Part shown: positions 3,948-16,006 of the stretch, piece by piece
Numbering within the stretch: the first letter of the stretch is position 1
Layout: each line of letters begins with the position of its first letter
Assembly: GCA_029258925.1 (NCBI GenBank)
Contig: JAPDJV010000015.1
Coordinates: 1 to 44,885, forward strand
DNA length: 44,885 nucleotides
Direction of reading: 5' to 3'
Origin: Thermoproteota archaeon
GTDB taxonomy: Archaea; Thermoproteota; Thermoprotei_A; EX4484-217-1; JAPDJV01
Made by a program: the position numbers and the translations under genes
Notes under the pieces: model-generated
Databases searched by the model: none
What the model saw: the letters and a program-made list of their open reading frames with translations, nothing else
Told to the model about the DNA's origin: nothing

Positions 3948-4274
3948 TTAGGAAACAGGAATATCTTGGTTTAAACCATTGAACAATATTTTGCCTGGTG
4001 AAAGCATTTTCCTTACAATTCCGTCTTCAAGCTCCTGTAATTCTAAAACAGCTATGTCAACAGGTAACCCCTTGGGTCTCATCTTGAGCAGCTTTATTGC
4101 CAACTCTATCGGATCACTGCATTCCTTCACAATAACCGCTATATCGTAATCACTGCTCTCCCTAAACCTGCCAGAACCCCTACTTCCATATAATACTATT
4201 GCTACCCTCCCATTGAAGAAGCCTATGATCTTGCGTACATATTCTTGAAAAAGACTTGGATACTGCTTTACCAT
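3948..4274 (-). CDS. MNT-type nucleotidyltransferase (HEPN/MNT antitoxin)
   Basis: A 108-residue minimal nucleotidyltransferase. It carries the polymerase-beta-fold signature GSRGSGRF followed by SDYDIAV (the D-x-D metal pair) and a later aspartate in VDIAVLEL, so the catalytic acids look intact. In HEPN/MNT modules such proteins AMPylate or otherwise silence the HEPN partner. It lies 31 bases downstream of the HEPN gene on the same strand. The start ATG 4274 has an AAGGAGA stretch immediately before it, with spacing shorter than usual. Assignment as an antitoxin is from family knowledge; activity here is untested. Confidence 0.8.
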   Translation of the reverse strand: MVKQYPSLFQEYVRKIIGFFNGRVAIVLYGSRGSGRFRESSDYDIAVIVKECSDPIELAIKLLKMRPKGLPVDIAVLELQELEDGIVRKMLSPGKILFNGLNQDIPVS

Positions 4275-4305
4275 TCTCCTTCTCTCAGCAATGCCACCAT
4301 TCTTC

Positions 4306-4680
4306 TTAATGTTTTAACACCTCTTCTAACCATTTAACTATAATTTTCGAATACTTTAAGCATAATAATCCTCTTCTTTCACCATATTCAATTACTCTTC
4401 TACGGGGATATCTTGAAGTCAAGTAATGTGGTGTGAGAAATTCCGCTGCATCATAAACTTCATCCGGTACATCGAAGCCCATACTCTCAACCTCGTTTAG
4501 GAGAATAGCTAAATCGTGAGTAAATGGGTAAGAACCCGTCTTATCCAATAGTAATGCTTTAAGGAAGAACTCTGTAGCCTGGTGGGCATGAAAACATGTT
4601 AGCCAATATATTTTCTTCTTGAAGCATTCCTCTGCCTCAGCTAGGAAAACCCTGCCTTTCTGAATCCACTCTTCAACCAC
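4306..4680 (-). CDS. HEPN domain protein
   Basis: A 124-residue all-helical HEPN protein (PF05168 type). The recognisable part is FHAHQATEFFLKALL followed by FTHDLAILL, the usual second and third helix pattern. I do not see a clear R-x4-6-H ribonuclease motif near the C-terminus, so toxin activity is uncertain. GTG 4680 is preferred because GGAGGT at 4688-4693 is 7 bases upstream; a TTG at 4695 in frame lies within that ribosome site and is unlikely. It is the first gene of a two-gene unit with the MNT nucleotidyltransferase, transcribed away from the methionine synthase gene. Confidence 0.75.
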   Translation of the reverse strand: MVEEWIQKGRVFLAEAEECFKKKIYWLTCFHAHQATEFFLKALLLDKTGSYPFTHDLAILLNEVESMGFDVPDEVYDAAEFLTPHYLTSRYPRRRVIEYGERRGLLCLKYSKIIVKWLEEVLKH

Positions 4681-7073: not shown

Positions 7074-8171
7074 GTGAAGAGGATAGTGTTAATAGCCGTA
7101 ATAGTTCTTATAATAATTGTAGCTACAATATCAGGTTTAATGCTCTACAAGAGAGAATATATGGGCACTTCTGAAGCTCCTAAAGAAATCACTGTAACTG
7201 ATGCTCTTGGGAGAAATGTAACCTTACAGTATCCTGTAGAGACTGTTATTGTAACAGATGATGAGGTTGCCGAGCTTATTCAACTTTTAGGAGTTGCTGA
7301 TAGGGTGGTTGGTATTGAGCCTAGTATTTGTGAAAGAGGATACTTCCCACAAATGGAAGAAAAGCCTATAACGGGAAGTCAGTTTCGAGGTTTAAACTAC
7401 GAGCTAGTAGCCCAATTAAAACCCGACGTGGTAATAATGATGGATGTAGGGCCTGTAACGAAGGTTATAGATAAATTAGACAAGATAGGAGTTAAATCTA
7501 TAGTTATAAGTATTAATCCTGAAAACATACCCTACACTATTGAGCTTCTAGGTAAGATCTTTGGAAAGGAAGAACGTGCAGAAAAGCTACTAGAATGGTG
7601 GAATGGAAAATGGGAATTTCTAAGAGAACGTATGTCAAATGTGGCATCAACAGTTAAGCTTAAGATATTTATAGGTATGGGGTTTACGCAAACAGATAGA
7701 CTACCAACACATACTTGGGGCAAACTGGCTAAATGGAGTTACATACTAAATGTTTCAAAGCTTGAGAACATAGCAGCTGAAAAGCTGGAAACTCATGGAG
7801 AGCTAGACTTAGAATATATTGCTGAGGAAAGTCCAGACATCATAATCATTGGTGACTGGTCAGATAACTGGATAGGGTATACAAAGAACAGTACTGAGCT
7901 AGCGGATAACATGATAGCTATAGTCATGGGGGATCCTGTCCTACAGGATGTAAGCGCTGTTAGAAGCGGAAGAGTGTTCATAGTACACTATATACTACTT
8001 GGAAGCTTTAGATCTGTTATAGGAGCCTACTACCTAGCTAAGGTAGCATATCCAGAGGTCTTCGAAGACATCAACCCTGACCAAATACATAAAGAGTACT
8101 TTGAGACGTGGTTAGGAGTGCCATATAGGGGGATATGGTTCTATCCTCGCCCATGGCTAGGTGAGGGGTGA
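7074..8171 (+). CDS. BtuF/FecB-type substrate-binding protein, membrane-anchored
   Basis: A 365-residue periplasmic binding protein of the iron-siderophore/cobalamin/heme class (PF01497). An uncleaved-looking hydrophobic helix spans residues 3-25 and anchors it outside the membrane. The domain begins ITVTDALGRNVTLQYPVETVI; QLKPDVVIMMD and DLEYIAEESPDIIIIGDW are the family's characteristic strands on the two lobes. It delivers ligand to the FecCD-type permease two genes downstream. GTG 7074 follows a GGGGGA...AGGT leader. Its TGA at 8169-8171 is 6 bases from the ATT proposed as the next gene's start, so translation is probably coupled. The ligand (corrinoid, heme, iron chelate or something new) cannot be read from sequence. 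Confidence 0.88.
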   Translation: MKRIVLIAVIVLIIIVATISGLMLYKREYMGTSEAPKEITVTDALGRNVTLQYPVETVIVTDDEVAELIQLLGVADRVVGIEPSICERGYFPQMEEKPITGSQFRGLNYELVAQLKPDVVIMMDVGPVTKVIDKLDKIGVKSIVISINPENIPYTIELLGKIFGKEERAEKLLEWWNGKWEFLRERMSNVASTVKLKIFIGMGFTQTDRLPTHTWGKLAKWSYILNVSKLENIAAEKLETHGELDLEYIAEESPDIIIIGDWSDNWIGYTKNSTELADNMIAIVMGDPVLQDVSAVRSGRVFIVHYILLGSFRSVIGAYYLAKVAYPEVFEDINPDQIHKEYFETWLGVPYRGIWFYPRPWLGEG

Positions 8172-8172
8172 T
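8164..8172 (+). promoter_or_regulatory. Ribosome site that supports an ATT start
   Basis: GAGGGGTGA/T spans the end of the binding protein gene and lies 5-6 bases before ATT 8178. No ATG, GTG or TTG occurs in the downstream frame between the stop at 8172 and ATG 8289, so this site is what makes ATT the likely initiation codon. Confidence 0.6.
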
Positions 8173-8177
8173 AAGCT

Positions 8178-9218
8178 ATTTTAAATCTCTACACTATCTT
8201 ATCAAAAGCACAGAAAGATGAAATAACAGAGGAGGAAGCATTAACTATTCTACGTAAGGTTAGAAGCTACAGCGAACTGCTCGACCTAATGAAGGTTGCG
8301 GCAAAAGTTAGAAGTGAAGAGGTAGGTGATATCTACAAGTTTGAAGCTTTTATAGGTCCTATAACAAAATGTACAACTAATCCTCCATGTAAATACTGTA
8401 GAAGGTCTAGTAGGGATAGGTCAATATTTGATAGCCCTTTATCACTTAGCGAGATAAAGACCGGTATCGAGCTAGTAGCTAAGACAGGCATAAAGAGGGT
8501 TGAGATCGGTGGTGGAACCTTATGGGAGGGAGCAGGTAGGAAGGTTGTGGAAGCTGTAAGAATAATAAAGAAGATAACTCCTCACATTAAGGTAAGAGTA
8601 AATGTGGGTCCTGCACTAACAATAAACGACCTTCTTAAGCTAAAAGAGCTTAATGTAGAAGAGGTCAGCAGTAACTTCGAAACTATGAATGAACAGGTAT
8701 TTAATAGCGTAAAGCCTGGCGATAGCTTAAATGCTAGAGTAGAGCTTGCAAAAAACATTGATTCCATAGGGTTAAAACTATCAACTACCATGATGGTGGG
8801 TATTGGAAGCACCTATGAGGACTATGTAAAACACATGTTCTGGTTTAAAAAGAACATTAAAAAACTATCTAGATTTGCAATAACAGCTCTTAGACCTATA
8901 CCAGGTACCCCCTTAGAAAGTAAACCTATGGCTTCACCAGTAGAGGTTGCTAAGATAGGTGCTGTTGCAAGGTTGATTTTTAGAGGCGTAGATGTATGTT
9001 TTGGAGGTATAATGAACGATATAAGGCTATTACCTCTTAGAGTCATGGCTGGTGAGAACAGAGAAGTCCATCTTAGTGTCTCAGTACATAGAGCCTGGGA
9101 CTACCCTATACTATCACCTAGTGAAACCACAGTTTTCAACATGGATAAACTAAGGTTTGTAAACAACCTACCTCTGGTAACTAGAATAATTAAAGACCTA
9201 GGTTTAGAACCTGAGTAA
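8178..9218 (+). CDS. HcgA/HmdB-like radical SAM protein, copy 1 (ATT start)
   Basis: Read from ATT 8178 the product is 346 residues. It is a radical SAM enzyme of the BioB/HydE/PylB/HmdB type. The cluster motif is CTTNPPCKYC, that is CX5CX2C with cysteines 65, 71 and 74, instead of the standard CX3CX2C; the same spacing is known from HcgA (HmdB) of the methanogen FeGP cofactor pathway. VEIGGGT is the SAM-binding glycine motif. Reading from the first ATG (8289) would remove 37 residues that align well with the N-terminus of the next gene's product (TILSKAQKD against TILKKTLKD; EALT; LLDLMKVAAKVR against LMDLLKVASKVR). ATT aligns exactly with that neighbour's ATG. It sits inside an importer operon; the reaction is unknown. 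Confidence 0.85.
   Translation: MLNLYTILSKAQKDEITEEEALTILRKVRSYSELLDLMKVAAKVRSEEVGDIYKFEAFIGPITKCTTNPPCKYCRRSSRDRSIFDSPLSLSEIKTGIELVAKTGIKRVEIGGGTLWEGAGRKVVEAVRIIKKITPHIKVRVNVGPALTINDLLKLKELNVEEVSSNFETMNEQVFNSVKPGDSLNARVELAKNIDSIGLKLSTTMMVGIGSTYEDYVKHMFWFKKNIKKLSRFAITALRPIPGTPLESKPMASPVEVAKIGAVARLIFRGVDVCFGGIMNDIRLLPLRVMAGENREVHLSVSVHRAWDYPILSPSETTVFNMDKLRFVNNLPLVTRIIKDLGLEPE
8491..8520 (+). repeat. 30-base exact repeat shared by the two radical SAM genes, copy 1
   Basis: Thirty bases encoding KRVEIGGGT and flanks are identical to 9562-9591 in the next gene, in the same frame. Overall the two genes are much more diverged, so this block reflects strong constraint at the SAM-binding motif or local gene conversion. 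Confidence 0.8.
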
Positions 9219-9245: not shown

Positions 9246-10289
9246 ATGACAGATTATACAACAATTTTAAAAAAGACTTTAAAGGATCCTATCGCTAAAG
9301 ATGAAGCTCTCACTTTATTCAAGAAAATTCAAACCCATGGTAAACTAATGGACTTACTTAAGGTAGCTAGTAAGGTTAGAGACGATGAGGTAGGGAGTAA
9401 AGTTAAGCTAATGGGGTTTATAGCAAGTATAACACCTTGTACTGTCGACCCTCCATGTAGATACTGTTTTAGATGGGCTAACGAGAGGTTGTTTAACATA
9501 GACGATGTGCTAAGCGATGATGAGCTAGAGATATCGATGAGAGTTGTAGAAGCAAAAGGGTTAAAGAGGGTTGAGATCGGTGGTGGAACCTACCTAGGTG
9601 AGGAAGGTCGCAAGATGACCATGCATAAGCTTAACATAGCATGTAAAACCTCTCGCAGGGTTGGAGTATGGATTACTAACGTCTCCTTTAACCCTGAAGA
9701 TGTTTACGTGTTAAAAGATATTGGTGTTGAAGGAGTAACTTGCAACCTTGAAACGCTAAATGAAGAGGTTTATAAAAGGTTAAGACCAGGGTTAAACCTA
9801 ACTATTCGTAAGAGGATAATTGAAGAGACTGAGAAAGCGGGACTAGGTATAGATAACACTTTAATGATAGGTCTTGGTGAGTATTGGAACCAGCAACACC
9901 CATATGAGGATTGGGTCGAGTTCCTCTATTACTTTAAGAGGTTTAAGAATTTAAGGATAATGGAGATACATCCGTTTAGACCTGTATGGAACTCTCCATG
10001 TCAAAACATGCCTCCAGGCTCGGAGTTTGAAACTATAAAAGCCATCGCTATAGCTAGGCTCATATATAGAAACATAGACATTAGCGGTGCACAAAGCGTT
10101 CAAGGACTTCTTGCTGGTGCAAACCTTATAATGCATGTTTACCCCATAACTAAAGGCTTTAGACCATGGAGCAGACATCAACTGTTCTACTCGAAGATAG
10201 TTAAGCTCGATGAAGACCTGGTTATGGTTGATAACCTACTTGAGGTTACGAGAAATGCCAGGGAAATGGGCTTTGAAATAGAGATTTAG
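9246..10289 (+). CDS. HcgA/HmdB-like radical SAM protein, copy 2
   Basis: A 347-residue paralogue of the preceding gene product, starting at ATG 9246 after a GGGGTG-containing leader. It has CTVDPPCRYC with cysteines 65, 71 and 74, again CX5CX2C, and VEIGGGT. Near the end of the barrel the copies differ: this one has MEIHPFRPVWNSPC, copy 1 has ITALRPIPGTP. That suggests related but distinct substrates or a division of labour. BioB-like enzymes of this group build or remodel cofactors (biotin, hydrogenase cofactors, pyrrolysine). No other hcg gene and no Hmd hydrogenase gene is in the window, so FeGP cofactor synthesis is not implied. Confidence 0.88.
   Translation: MTDYTTILKKTLKDPIAKDEALTLFKKIQTHGKLMDLLKVASKVRDDEVGSKVKLMGFIASITPCTVDPPCRYCFRWANERLFNIDDVLSDDELEISMRVVEAKGLKRVEIGGGTYLGEEGRKMTMHKLNIACKTSRRVGVWITNVSFNPEDVYVLKDIGVEGVTCNLETLNEEVYKRLRPGLNLTIRKRIIEETEKAGLGIDNTLMIGLGEYWNQQHPYEDWVEFLYYFKRFKNLRIMEIHPFRPVWNSPCQNMPPGSEFETIKAIAIARLIYRNIDISGAQSVQGLLAGANLIMHVYPITKGFRPWSRHQLFYSKIVKLDEDLVMVDNLLEVTRNAREMGFEIEI
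9562..9591 (+). repeat. 30-base exact repeat shared by the two radical SAM genes, copy 2
   Basis: Identical to 8491-8520; covers the SAM-binding glycine motif of the second paralogue. Confidence 0.8.
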
Positions 10290-10338
10290 AGTATATGTGC
10301 TAAGCGCTTGATAATGTTTGATTTTGGAGTATCCAACA

Positions 10339-11427
10339 ATGAATAGGTTGATTAAAGATCCATACAAAGGTTACGAAGGCCTCATAAAGAGGAGAACCTC
10401 TTTTTTAACCTTTCTCACGCTAGTACTTTTAGCGTTAATGATATCATCTATATCTGTAGGTTCAGCATCCATGTCTTTATCTGATGCTATTAAAGCGCTT
10501 CTCTCACCTATACTTCCAGAAATTTCTAGTTCAAACCCTCTAATGGAGAATATAGTTTGGAACTTGAGATTGCCGAGAGTTATAATGGCGGTTCTTACTG
10601 GTGCATGTTTTGGTATAGCTGGATGTATATTACAGGTTATACTGAGAAATCCATTAGCATCACCTTACACTATAGGCGTGGCATCATCAGCGGCTTTTGG
10701 TGCCGCATTGGCTATAATTTTAGGTGCTGGAGTTACAGGATGGTGGGGTCATATAATGGTTTACGAAAATCCATATCTAATAGTTCTCAATGCTTTCTCC
10801 TTCTCAATGATATGTTCTTTAACTATAATGTTGCTATCCTCGTATAAAGGTGCTAGTCCAAGTGCTACTATACTAGCTGGAATAGCTATGACGTACTTGT
10901 TTTCTGCATTAACATCTCTCCTACAATATTTTGGTACTACAGAGCAGATTGCAGCCGTCGTATTTTGGACTTTTGGTGATTTAGGTAAAGCAGAATGGTT
11001 TGATGTTGAACTAGCTACTCTTACACTTCTCACTTTAGCCCCTATAGCTATCGTCTTCTCTAGTAGCTATAATGCTGTTCTTGCTGGTGATGAGGTTGCC
11101 AGAAGTCTTGGTGTGAATGTAAAGGTCCTCAGGATATCATCCTTAGCTATAGCATCGCTTCTTACAGCAACGCCTGTGGCCTTCATTGGCACTATAGGCT
11201 TTATAGGTCTTTTAGCTCCACACATAGCTCGCATGATAATAGGTTCTGACCATCGTTTCTTAATTCCATCAGCATCACTAATAGGTTCCATTCTCCTACT
11301 TGCAGCTGATACTATTGCTAGAATTATACTTTCGCCTCTCATACTTCCTGTTGGAATAGTAACTGCCTTTATGGGCGTACCATTATTCCTGTACTTACTT
11401 CTTAGGAGGAGAGATGAATATTGGTAA
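10339..11427 (+). CDS. FecCD/BtuC-type ABC importer permease
   Basis: A 362-residue multi-span permease of the FecCD family (PF01032), the type II importer fold with about ten membrane helices per subunit acting as a homodimer. Diagnostic stretches are RLPRVIMAVLTGACFGIAG, RNPLASPYTIGV and the late GTIGFIGLLAPHIARM loop that contacts the ATPase. ATG 10339 is preceded by TTGGAG 9 bases away; a TTG at 10318 in frame has no better site. The gene overlaps the ATPase gene by 7 bases. Family members carry cobalamin, heme or iron-siderophores. Confidence 0.9.
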   Translation: MNRLIKDPYKGYEGLIKRRTSFLTFLTLVLLALMISSISVGSASMSLSDAIKALLSPILPEISSSNPLMENIVWNLRLPRVIMAVLTGACFGIAGCILQVILRNPLASPYTIGVASSAAFGAALAIILGAGVTGWWGHIMVYENPYLIVLNAFSFSMICSLTIMLLSSYKGASPSATILAGIAMTYLFSALTSLLQYFGTTEQIAAVVFWTFGDLGKAEWFDVELATLTLLTLAPIAIVFSSSYNAVLAGDEVARSLGVNVKVLRISSLAIASLLTATPVAFIGTIGFIGLLAPHIARMIIGSDHRFLIPSASLIGSILLLAADTIARIILSPLILPVGIVTAFMGVPLFLYLLLRRRDEYW

Positions 11428-12185
11428 CGCTGAAAATACTGGATGTGAGCTTTAGATACAATAGTGTATCAGCGTTAGAAAACGTGACATTTAACGTTGA
11501 TGAAGGTGAGGTTGTAAGTCTTCTAGGTCCTAACGGTTCAGGGAAAACAACGTTGCTTAGATGCATGTGCAGACTGTTAAAACCTCAGTATGGTGCAATA
11601 TTACTTGACGAGGAGGATTTAAGCATCCTTAAGAGAAGTGAGCTTGCTAAACTTATAGGTTATGTACCACAGCTAGAAGAAACTAAATTTCCAATGACAG
11701 TATTCGAAATGATCCTTCTAGGTAGGAAACCCTACATAAGGTTGGGTCCTGGTAGAAATGATATAATAGTTGTTGGAAAGGTTATGAAAGAGCTGGGAAT
11801 AGAAGATCTTGCATTTAGAAAGGTGAGTGAGCTTAGTGGTGGTGAGTGGAGAAAAGCCGTAATAGCACGTGCTCTAGCTCAAGAGCCTAAGATACTACTA
11901 CTTGATGAGCCAACTAACCATTTGGACTTAAAACATCAAGTTGAAGTTTTAAAGTTGATAAGAAGATTAGCATTGGAAAGAAATGTATGTATAGTTATGG
12001 CAATGCATGATATCAACCTTGCAGTAAGGTTTTCAGACAAAGTAGTGATGCTCAATCAAGGTAAGATAGTGTTTTGTGGTAAACCTTTAGCCTTAAAACC
12101 TAGCATCATTGAGAAGGTATATGATGTTAAAGTTGATGTTTTACATGATAGAAAGGGACTACCTATAATAACTGTTGTAGAGTAG
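11421..12185 (+). CDS. FecE/BtuD-type ABC importer ATPase
   Basis: A 254-residue ATPase partner of the FecCD-type permease. Walker A is GPNGSGKTT, the signature is LSGGEW, Walker B is ILLLDEPTNHLD and the switch histidine lies in AMHDINLA. It starts at TTG 11421 with AGGAGGAGAG about 9 bases upstream, inside the end of the permease gene, so the two are translationally coupled. It is the last gene of the operon begun at 7074. Sequence cannot tell whether the cargo is a corrinoid, heme or iron chelate. Confidence 0.9.
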   Translation: MVTLKILDVSFRYNSVSALENVTFNVDEGEVVSLLGPNGSGKTTLLRCMCRLLKPQYGAILLDEEDLSILKRSELAKLIGYVPQLEETKFPMTVFEMILLGRKPYIRLGPGRNDIIVVGKVMKELGIEDLAFRKVSELSGGEWRKAVIARALAQEPKILLLDEPTNHLDLKHQVEVLKLIRRLALERNVCIVMAMHDINLAVRFSDKVVMLNQGKIVFCGKPLALKPSIIEKVYDVKVDVLHDRKGLPIITVVE

Positions 12186-13496: not shown

Positions 13497-14600
13497 ATGA
13501 ATGAGTTCTTGCTGGAGAGATGGCAGAGTTTGAGAGAGCATAAATGTAAGATTAACTTGTCTGAGAGCGGGGTTTCACCGCTATCTCTCAGAGATCTAGG
13601 CGTAGAGATTCCCTTAGATCTCAAACTAGGCTACATTATGACTAAGGGCTCCGAAGAACTTAGATCACTTATTGCAGAGTACTATGGCTTCAACGATCCG
13701 GAGAGCATAGTTGTTACTAATGGAACTGCAGAAGCAAACATGATAGTTGCTCTATCTATTTTAAAGAAGGGAGATAAAGCAGTAATTCAAATGCCGAATT
13801 ACATGCAAACTTATGGTTTACTCGAACATTTCGGTGTGAAAGTAGTTGAATGGTGGCTTAAACCAGAAGACAACTATAGGCCTAGGATTAGTGAATTAGA
13901 GGAGTTGCTGGATGAAAACGTTAGGGCAGTCTTCATAACGAATCCCAATAATCCAACAGGCAAAGTACTGGGTGAAAAAGAGTTAAAGAGTATTAGTGAG
14001 ATCATCTCGGACTACGATTCCTACATAGTTTTCGATGAAGTGTACCGTGGACTGGAATTAAACGTGGAGTATACTCCAAGCATAGTCGAATGCGGTCCTC
14101 CCGAAAAAACAATAGTTACCTCTGGCCTCTCGAAGGCATTCGGCCTCCCGGGACTAAGAGTGGGCTGGATTGTTTCAAGTAGGAAGTTTGCTGAAAAGTC
14201 TTGGGCTACCAAAGACTACACTACAATATGTATTTCCGCTCTAAGCGACTACATTGCAAGACATGTTATGCAACCTCATATTAGGGAAAAACTGATTTCA
14301 AGGAATAGGGAGTTTGTGAAAAGAAATCTGGAAATAGTGGAAAGAATATTCTCCGATTATAGAGAAGTGGCGTGGATCCATAGGCCTGACGCGGGAGCAT
14401 TTACTTTAATGAGCTATGTTATCTCAGAAGAATCTATTGATCTAGCGGAGGAAATCTACAGAGAGCTGTCAATACTTGTTGTTCCAGGGGAATGCTTCAA
14501 TTTGAAGAGGACATTTAGGATAGGCATAGGGTGTGAGAGTAACGTTCTAGTGGAGGGCTTGAAAAAAGTCTTAGATTATATTGCCGAGAAAAGTATTTAA
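13497..14600 (+). CDS. Class I/II PLP aminotransferase
   Basis: A 367-residue fold-type I aminotransferase (PF00155). NPNNPTGKVLG contains the PLP-contacting asparagine, FDEVYRG the cofactor aspartate/tyrosine pair, and SGLSKAFGLPGLRVGW the Schiff-base lysine and phosphate-binding arginine. The substrate arginine is likely in FRIGIGC near the end. Aspartate, aromatic or related amino acids are possible substrates; sequence does not decide. ATG 13497 is taken because GGAGGGA precedes it; TATA-like TTTAAATAC near 13446 gives a leader of about 20 bases. Its TAA shares bases with the stop of the convergent hydrolase gene. Confidence 0.85.
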   Translation: MNEFLLERWQSLREHKCKINLSESGVSPLSLRDLGVEIPLDLKLGYIMTKGSEELRSLIAEYYGFNDPESIVVTNGTAEANMIVALSILKKGDKAVIQMPNYMQTYGLLEHFGVKVVEWWLKPEDNYRPRISELEELLDENVRAVFITNPNNPTGKVLGEKELKSISEIISDYDSYIVFDEVYRGLELNVEYTPSIVECGPPEKTIVTSGLSKAFGLPGLRVGWIVSSRKFAEKSWATKDYTTICISALSDYIARHVMQPHIREKLISRNREFVKRNLEIVERIFSDYREVAWIHRPDAGAFTLMSYVISEESIDLAEEIYRELSILVVPGECFNLKRTFRIGIGCESNVLVEGLKKVLDYIAEKSI

Positions 14601-15151
14601 TCTCCTCCTTCAATTGCCTTCAATATATCAGAGCTCTTAACGATCTCCACTCCATAGATGTTCTTCATGTACTTTAATCCGTCTAAGTGGTCCTCTAACG
14701 TGAATGCCCCGGTACAGTCCTCTACCACAATAACCTTATATCCTCTGAAGAAGGCATCAGCTGCAGTATGTTTAACGCACACATTTGTTGTGAGACCTGT
14801 TAAAACAAGTGTGTCCACTCCTAACTCCCTCAATAACAGGTCTAGGTCTGTCTGGAAGAACCCACTATACCTCCTCTTCTCCACGACAAAGTCGCCTTCC
14901 TCAGGCTTCAATTCCTCGACAACACTTGCACCCCTACTACCCTTAATAGCGTGTGGACCCCATAACTCAAGTTCTTTGTCAATTCCTTGAATATGTGAAT
15001 CATTAGTATATATTATTGGAATTCCCTTTTTCCTAGCTGAAACCAGTAGTTTCCTTATATTGGGAATGATTTTAGCTCCCATATCGCACTTGAGTTTTCC
15101 TCTCACAAAATCTTCAAGCATGTCTATAACTAGAATAGCCATCTTCCCCAT
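14597..15151 (-). CDS. Isochorismatase family hydrolase, nicotinamidase-like
   Basis: A 184-residue cysteine hydrolase (PF00857). The catalytic triad is visible as aspartate in ILVIDMLEDF, lysine in VVEKRRYSGF and cysteine in TTNVCVKHTA. Size and motifs match archaeal nicotinamidases, which convert nicotinamide to nicotinate for NAD salvage, although isochorismatase and N-carbamoyl hydrolase relatives look similar. The start at ATG 15151 appears near-leaderless, with a TATA-like TTTATAT about 35 bases upstream; ATG 15142 is an alternative. The stop codon overlaps the convergent aminotransferase stop (TTAA at 14597-14600). Confidence 0.8.
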   Translation of the reverse strand: MGKMAILVIDMLEDFVRGKLKCDMGAKIIPNIRKLLVSARKKGIPIIYTNDSHIQGIDKELELWGPHAIKGSRGASVVEELKPEEGDFVVEKRRYSGFFQTDLDLLLRELGVDTLVLTGLTTNVCVKHTAADAFFRGYKVIVVEDCTGAFTLEDHLDGLKYMKNIYGVEIVKSSDILKAIEGGD

Positions 15152-15232
15152 AGATCTTCGCCAGAATAATTGTTTGCCTCGGTGATATAAACTTTTATTG
15201 TTCTAAAAGCTTTTTCAAACTGTGATACCAAG

Positions 15233-16006
15233 CTATTCTATTGTAGCTTTATTGAAGATGTAAGATGCTATGCTTACCATCACTATGGCCAACAAGATGA
15301 GCGCAGCTAAGTCAACAGACGGCGTAATCTGGGATACTCCTGTTAAAGACCATCTCGCAAGATCCACTCCATACGTTAACGGATTCACGTAGGCCAATAG
15401 CTTCATCCACTCTGGAAGATTGTCTAATGGGTAGAATGCTCCGCTTGAGAACAATAATGGGAGGTTTACGAAGCTCATCAATATTTGAAATCCTTCTATA
15501 CTCCTCATTTTAGAAGCTATTGCTATACCGATACTCGTGAAGGAGAATGCAACGAGGGCTCCGGCAAGAATAGTTAAGGGGATCCCGGATAACTTAAGGG
15601 ATGGTGCTAGGTAAAAGGTTGCAATCAATATTATGGTTCCTTGAAGCAATGCCACCAGCATGTCTCCTAGTGCTCTACCTAAGATACTAGCTGTTCTGGA
15701 GACTGGTGCAACAAGTATCTCCTTCAGGAAACCGAACTCCTTATCCCATATAACTGTTATCCCCCCTATGAAGCTTGCAGTAAAAATTGTCATCATAACC
15801 ACTCCAGGCGAAAGATATGACATATAGTCTAATCCATGGAAGACCATTTTAGCCATGGGGCTACTGAATGCTGAACTCCAGCCTAATCCAAAGAACACTA
15901 ACCACATCACCGGATTCACAATGCTCCCAATGAGCCTGGACTTTGCTCTTAGAAACCTCTTAATCTGTCGGTAAGCCATGATATAAATAGTTCTGGCCTC
16001 AATCAT
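15233..16006 (-). CDS. ABC-2 type exporter permease
   Basis: A 257-residue ABC-2 permease (DrrB/NodJ-like, PF01061/PF12698 group) with six predicted membrane helices. The N-terminal amphipathic segment MAYRQIKRFLRAKSRL and the central GGITVIWDKEFGFLKEIL with VAPVSR are typical of this class. ATG 16006 overlaps the upstream ATPase stop as ATGA and has GGAG shortly before it. Together with the ATPase it should form a homodimer-pair exporter for drugs, lipids or other hydrophobic compounds; cargo unknown. The gene is last in the PadR-controlled unit. Confidence 0.88.
   Translation of the reverse strand: MIEARTIYIMAYRQIKRFLRAKSRLIGSIVNPVMWLVFFGLGWSSAFSSPMAKMVFHGLDYMSYLSPGVVMMTIFTASFIGGITVIWDKEFGFLKEILVAPVSRTASILGRALGDMLVALLQGTIILIATFYLAPSLKLSGIPLTILAGALVAFSFTSIGIAIASKMRSIEGFQILMSFVNLPLLFSSGAFYPLDNLPEWMKLLAYVNPLTYGVDLARWSLTGVSQITPSVDLAALILLAIVMVSIASYIFNKATIE

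Follow-up and report, generated by a model that had tools for sequence, protein, structure and literature searches.

Initiation at AUU is known in prokaryotes but rare, and the gene described here very probably adds a case. In bacteria, infC encodes an initiation factor (IF3) and is autoregulated through its AUU codon. The archaeal gene that we analyzed, radical SAM copy 1, would share with infC of E. coli and other bacteria an AUU start in front of a full-length conserved protein, but it encodes a metabolic enzyme, its ATT is absent from most orthologues, and it shows no sign of autoregulation. Switches from AUG to AUU starts are rare in prokaryotes, with 1 among 61,358 ancestral AUG starts (Belinky et al. 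2017, PMC5622118). That work documents that AUU starts arise by substitution; the published rate was derived from start-codon switches within 36 triplets of closely related genomes, and the rate that we infer below for an archaeal class is much higher. In another report (PMC13394414), the Asgard archaeal tubulin AtubA is assigned an ATT start from its alignment, its fold, and a ribosome-binding site at a plausible distance. On that account, AtubA resembles copy 1 as an archaeal gene whose annotated start lies too far downstream and whose ATT start is deduced, and differs from it in being another gene of another archaeal group. In Sulfolobus solfataricus, aIF1 is reported to help in discriminating against non-canonical starts (PMC6237735). 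A literature search of limited coverage returned no survey of near-cognate starts in the archaea studied here.

The window, i.e., the whole stretch of 44,885 nucleotides that was analyzed, comes from a Thermoproteota archaeon whose genome (G000) is a draft of 56 contigs, 98.4% complete. The features discussed below are given in the table. The stop of the BtuF-like gene (TGA, 8169-8171) directly abuts the TAA at 8172, and both stops are in the frame of copy 1. After this TAA, the frame continues for 114 nt without a canonical start, in agreement with the sequence-only reading, which had found no ATG, GTG, or TTG in it before ATG 8289. The ATT at 8178 is the third codon after the TGA of the BtuF-like gene and precedes ATG 8289 by 37 codons ((8289-8178)/3). 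Judging from the sequence, copy 1 is very probably translated from this ATT, to which we give a probability of about 0.83.

Features of the locus around the start of radical SAM copy 1 (positions in the window)
Feature	Position	Strand	Remarks
BtuF-like periplasmic binding protein gene	7074..8171	+	Peripla_BP_2; TGA stop falls within the Shine-Dalgarno site of copy 1
Possible weak hairpin over the Shine-Dalgarno site and ATT	8160..8195	+	41-nt fold (8158-8198) of -8.9 kcal/mol; z -1.87; 10/200 shuffles as good
Shine-Dalgarno core GGTGAT, extended GAGGGGTGAT	8167..8172, extended 8163-8172	+	Complement of the 16S 3' end; dG -11.8; aligned spacing 5
Out-of-frame GTG that overlaps the BtuF stop (GTGA)	8168..8170	+	Start in the rival model with a one-base indel in 8171-8196
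TAA, in-frame stop	8172..8174	+	5' limit of the copy 1 frame
ATT, putative start of radical SAM copy 1	8178..8180	+	No canonical start before 8289; column shared with the ATG of copy 2, G278, and G001 and the ATT of G293
Radical SAM copy 1, HmdB/HydE/BioB-like, CX5CX2C motif, 346 aa	8178..9218	+	PF04055; TIGR03957; AF2 model; Foldseek
First in-frame canonical ATG, rejected as start	8289..8291	+	Without Shine-Dalgarno site; within helix 31-48
Radical SAM copy 2, ATG start	9246..10289	+	Paralogue used as alignment reference
BtuC/FecCD-like permease	10318..11427	+	
BtuD-like ATPase	11421..12185	+	

The 37 contested codons are coding. They are free of stops and frameshifts, and the residues L8, E20, L22, and L37, all upstream of ATG 8289, are invariant in an alignment of 11 homologues. 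Together with the match of the HmdB profile, which starts at 8226, this supports the earlier observation that these codons align with the N-terminus of the tandem paralogue. The solved structure of HydE can be aligned to copy 1 from residue 7 and that of PylB from residue 16. The AF2 model of copy 1 (mean pLDDT of 93) has helices at residues 4-11, 18-27, and 31-48, with pLDDT values of 90-97 across the first four ten-residue blocks, and the methionine encoded by ATG 8289 is residue 38 in this numbering. The first 3-6 residues fall in the variable part of the homologue alignment.

To locate the start within this region, the distance to the first cluster cysteine is informative: homologues with a canonical start there have 62, 63, or 64 codons before it. 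Their start codons are ATG (copy 2, G278, G001, L030, and L031), GTG (L029), or TTG (G080, G359, and G510). Copy 1 and its orthologue in G293, which is 54% identical to it, have no canonical start at 62-64 codons, and both have an ATT at exactly 64. The ATT of copy 1 is thus in the column of the copy 2 ATG and places the cysteines at 65, 71, and 74 in both paralogues, as had been proposed. The case of G293 is weaker, given a Shine-Dalgarno dG of -6.5 and an alternative ATG at its codon 12. A comparison of the aligned position in homologues, suggested at the outset as a check, hence gave TTG, GTG, or ATG in most of them and ATT in this one other. The ATT is not conserved, since the nearest orthologue (G080, 63%) uses TTG or ATG.

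The 16S rRNA of G000 ends in ...GGATCACCTCC, which contains ATCACC(TCC), so that the GGTGAT upstream of ATT 8178 pairs with it perfectly over 6 nt; the duplex energy of the site with AUCACCUCC is -11.8 kcal/mol. Five spacer bases separate this motif from the ATT, where the sequence-only reading had noted a ribosome-binding sequence 5-6 bases upstream. The aligned spacing is within the modal 4-5 of the 171 genes with Shine-Dalgarno sites in G000, and a run of at least 6 at 3-9 nt upstream is found for only 17 of the window's 2209 ATT triplets. In G278, the BtuF stop also lies inside GGGGGGTGAT, six bases 5' of an ATG, i.e., the architecture is that of copy 1 with a normal codon.

Other genes of G000 have starts of this type. 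From their sequences, NadM and RadA appear to start at ATT. In NadM (contig C7, L058:12832-13368), the ATT follows GGGGTGAGCATCT (GGGGTGAGCATCT ATT AGG), and the gene can only start there because no canonical codon occurs before the GRFQPPHKGH motif; the match to most relatives begins at residue 1 to 3. RadA (contig C1, L046, minus strand, 14254-15771) has an apparent intein and no canonical start, and ATT ATT ACG follows GGGGGAT, with the second ATT within one residue of the ATG in G001 and G003. Further candidates are a ZnuB-like permease, which has ATT, and a PUA-like protein (L065:1654-2145), in which an ACG follows GGGAGGTGA (a run of 8) and no canonical start occurs for 37 codons. These names (NadM from its GRFQPPHKGH motif, RadA, ZnuB-like, PUA-like) reflect our reading of the sequences rather than family searches. 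A second 400-kb sample of G000 gave no new clear ATT start. In the window itself (3954-4311, minus strand), a small nucleotidyltransferase-like gene has an ATT at 4310, seven bases after GAGGTG; it was not retained as evidence because a usable ATG lies 39 nt into the frame.

To assess how general the phenomenon is, we trained a coding-potential model on sequence sampled from four genomes: 845 kb of G000 (about 48% of it), an amount of the same order of G001, and 400 kb each of the closed genomes of two class-mates, G022 and G028. We read the class of G000 as Thermoprotei and G022 as Sulfolobaceae-like. Across the four genomes, 147 coding segments had no canonical start near the 5' end. In these, the in-frame codons positioned by a Shine-Dalgarno site were near-cognate in 23 of 45 cases, against 496 of 3055 (16%) in the background (p = 1e-7, as are the p values below from exploratory, hand-chosen thresholds and uncorrected for that choice). 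These sites are not real starts in every case, and some were dismissed by eye. The 23 codons comprise ATA (7), ATT (6), CTG (5), ACG (3), ATC (1), and AGG (1). Off-frame controls gave 3/50 and 4/45 (6-9%), and 60 scrambled motifs gave on average 22% of near-cognate codons, none of those with at least 20 sites reaching 51%. The enrichment persists without copy 1 (p = 2e-7) and in the closed genomes alone (p = 2e-4). Where GGTGA gives an in-frame TGA, as in copy 1, the third codon downstream of it is where most canonical starts lie, and ORFs without such a start often have ATT, ATA, CTG, or ACG in this place. A sample of G293, which belongs to another class, showed no enrichment (5/31). Inspection by eye removed the start-less ORFs at L064:10078, L060:8686, L060/L061:30804, and L048:16214, which are in the wrong frame or have a plausible TTG or ATG start, and the ATT at L060/L061:22387, which is followed by a GTG, is not evidence either.

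These results suggest that the group as a whole uses near-cognate starts, if rarely, that gene annotation overlooks them, and that ATT 8178 is one case of this tolerance of ATA, ATT, CTG, and ACG rather than a gene-specific switch. It seems reasonably probable that the class routinely starts about 1% of its genes, including the essential radA and nadM, at AUA, AUU, CUG, or ACG codons placed by a strong Shine-Dalgarno site, and that annotation truncates or misses these genes. The pattern also suggests a relaxed start-codon stringency across the whole archaeal class, which affects gene calling.

Several alternatives to a start at ATT 8178 have to be weighed against these data. ATG 8289, the first canonical codon and the one that an annotation program would choose, would make copy 1 a truncated protein of 309 aa and the conservation upstream of it a relic. 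However, residues upstream are invariant in the 11 homologues, the upstream segment has no stop or frameshift and is confidently modelled as packed helices, residue 38 lies inside the helix 31-48, and no Shine-Dalgarno site precedes ATG 8289 (dG -0.1); a start there is therefore very unlikely. Even less probable is a base error at 8178 where the real genome has ATG. One substitution would suffice in this single draft genome, and copy 2 does have ATG in that column, but the same pattern occurs in NadM and RadA of G000 and in genes of closed genomes, and an error rate high enough to affect several starts among about 800 genes would also riddle the coding regions with stops, contrary to what is observed. 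The main rival, which we nevertheless regard as improbable, starts copy 1 at GTG 8168 and supposes one extra base, in the assembly or in the organism, between 8171 and 8196 (e.g., TTTT for TTT, 8179-8182), with a protein beginning MISYLNLYTIL... Such GTGA or TTGA overlaps are common; a TTGA lies almost at this position in G080, which also shares SY with the predicted N-terminus. Frameshifts are also present on contig C9 of G000, and a ThrRS gene (L057, minus strand) resembles a start-proximal frameshift. Yet this GTG belongs to the Shine-Dalgarno motif itself, the aligned spacing of its own site would be 2, a value that 6 of the 171 genes have, and it would give 67 codons before the first cysteine when the others have 62-64. 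The coding-potential scan shows clustered frameshifts only on C9. In start-less genes, out-of-frame canonical triplets at sites positioned by a Shine-Dalgarno motif are rare (3/95, against the 23/45 for in-frame near-cognate codons), i.e., start-proximal frameshifts are rarer than near-cognate starts, and the frameshift model leaves the other near-cognate starts unexplained.

The remaining alternative is compatible with the ATT start itself and concerns its meaning. The sequence-only reading had proposed that, as in infC, the ATT lowers or regulates the output of copy 1 compared with that of copy 2. In favour of this, bacteria initiate weakly at AUU, the one further orthologue without a canonical start (G293) also has ATT, and a weak hairpin may cover the Shine-Dalgarno site of copy 1. 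Against this, the other orthologues have TTG, GTG, or ATG, the product is a radical SAM enzyme and not an initiation factor, near-cognate starts are found in unrelated genes, and the hairpin loses significance in a longer fold of 70 nt. A gene-specific regulatory start is thus quite doubtful. The recognition of a rare start codon at 8178 was well made, and its wider interest is the class-wide pattern, not the regulation of this gene. A few other possibilities were discarded: a BtuF-radical SAM fusion by readthrough of TGA TAA would have to cross two adjacent stops, and the N-terminus fits stand-alone homologues; ATC 8196 and ATA 8223 both lack a usable Shine-Dalgarno site; and CTG 8271 is too far downstream.

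Under a start at ATT 8178, the strong GGTGAT site five bases upstream would position the 30S subunit at this codon, and ribosomes terminating at the overlapping BtuF stop could also help initiation. AUU would be accepted by the initiator Met-tRNA as a near-cognate codon, which would presumably make methionine the first residue of the protein. If the ATT is the start, annotation from ATG 8289 omits the first 37 residues, invariant positions included, and cloning from this ATG would probably yield an inactive enzyme.

Copy 1 matches Pfam PF04055, and its best family is TIGR03957 (HmdB). It resembles the radical SAM enzymes HmdB, HydE, BioB, and PylB in its fold (its AF2 model has a Foldseek TM of 0.81 with HydE) and in the CX5CX2C cluster motif, which is typical of HmdB and which both copies have (C65, C71, and C74). 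It differs from HmdB in its score, in the absence of Hmd, and in its link to a BtuFCD-type transporter. The TIGR03957 scores are 160.4 bits for copy 1, half the curated cut-off of 320.9, and 133.5 for copy 2, also below it; the Hmd hydrogenase (PF03201) was not found in G000, which is 98.4% complete, with a positive control in M. jannaschii. On these two grounds, copy 1 is not a member of HmdB. The order BtuF-radical SAM-BtuC-BtuD is conserved with either a copy-1-type (G080) or a copy-2-type enzyme (G001 and G278), and the order is radical SAM-BtuF-BtuC-BtuD in L029-L031 and G293. No transporter of the BtuF/BtuC/BtuD type was found near the radical SAM gene of G359 and G510. Among the loci examined, both types occur together only in G000. 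The two genes are adjacent paralogues, as first described, but they are not a recent duplication because they are only 36% identical, and other genomes have one lineage or the other by itself between BtuF and BtuC. Our guess is that these enzymes act in connection with the transporter, in a role related to a cofactor or a chelate.

The searches also returned some unusual gene structures. In an Archaeoglobaceae MAG (L032:5518-6618), a copy-1-type radical SAM gene, cut at its N-terminus, is the in-frame continuation of a transposase-like ORF (OrfB/IS605-type by eye). In G296 (contig C98, L045), a gene of the same type is apparently split over two frames (matches at 8076-8822 and 8822-9088). Contig C9 of G000 (L062/L063) carries a cluster of frameshifted genes at about 7.7, 11.5, and 14.8 kb (Fe-S protein, ETF alpha-like, and nitrilase/NAD-synthase-like), which are local assembly errors or decaying genes. 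Near 7078 on the minus strand of L057, the ThrRS-like ORF has an ATG positioned by a Shine-Dalgarno site one base out of frame, probably by a frameshift or an assembly indel. Finally, the 16S rRNA match of G000 (L037, C8:58486-60433) extends over 1948 nt for a model of 1478 positions, which suggests that this gene holds an insertion or an intron.
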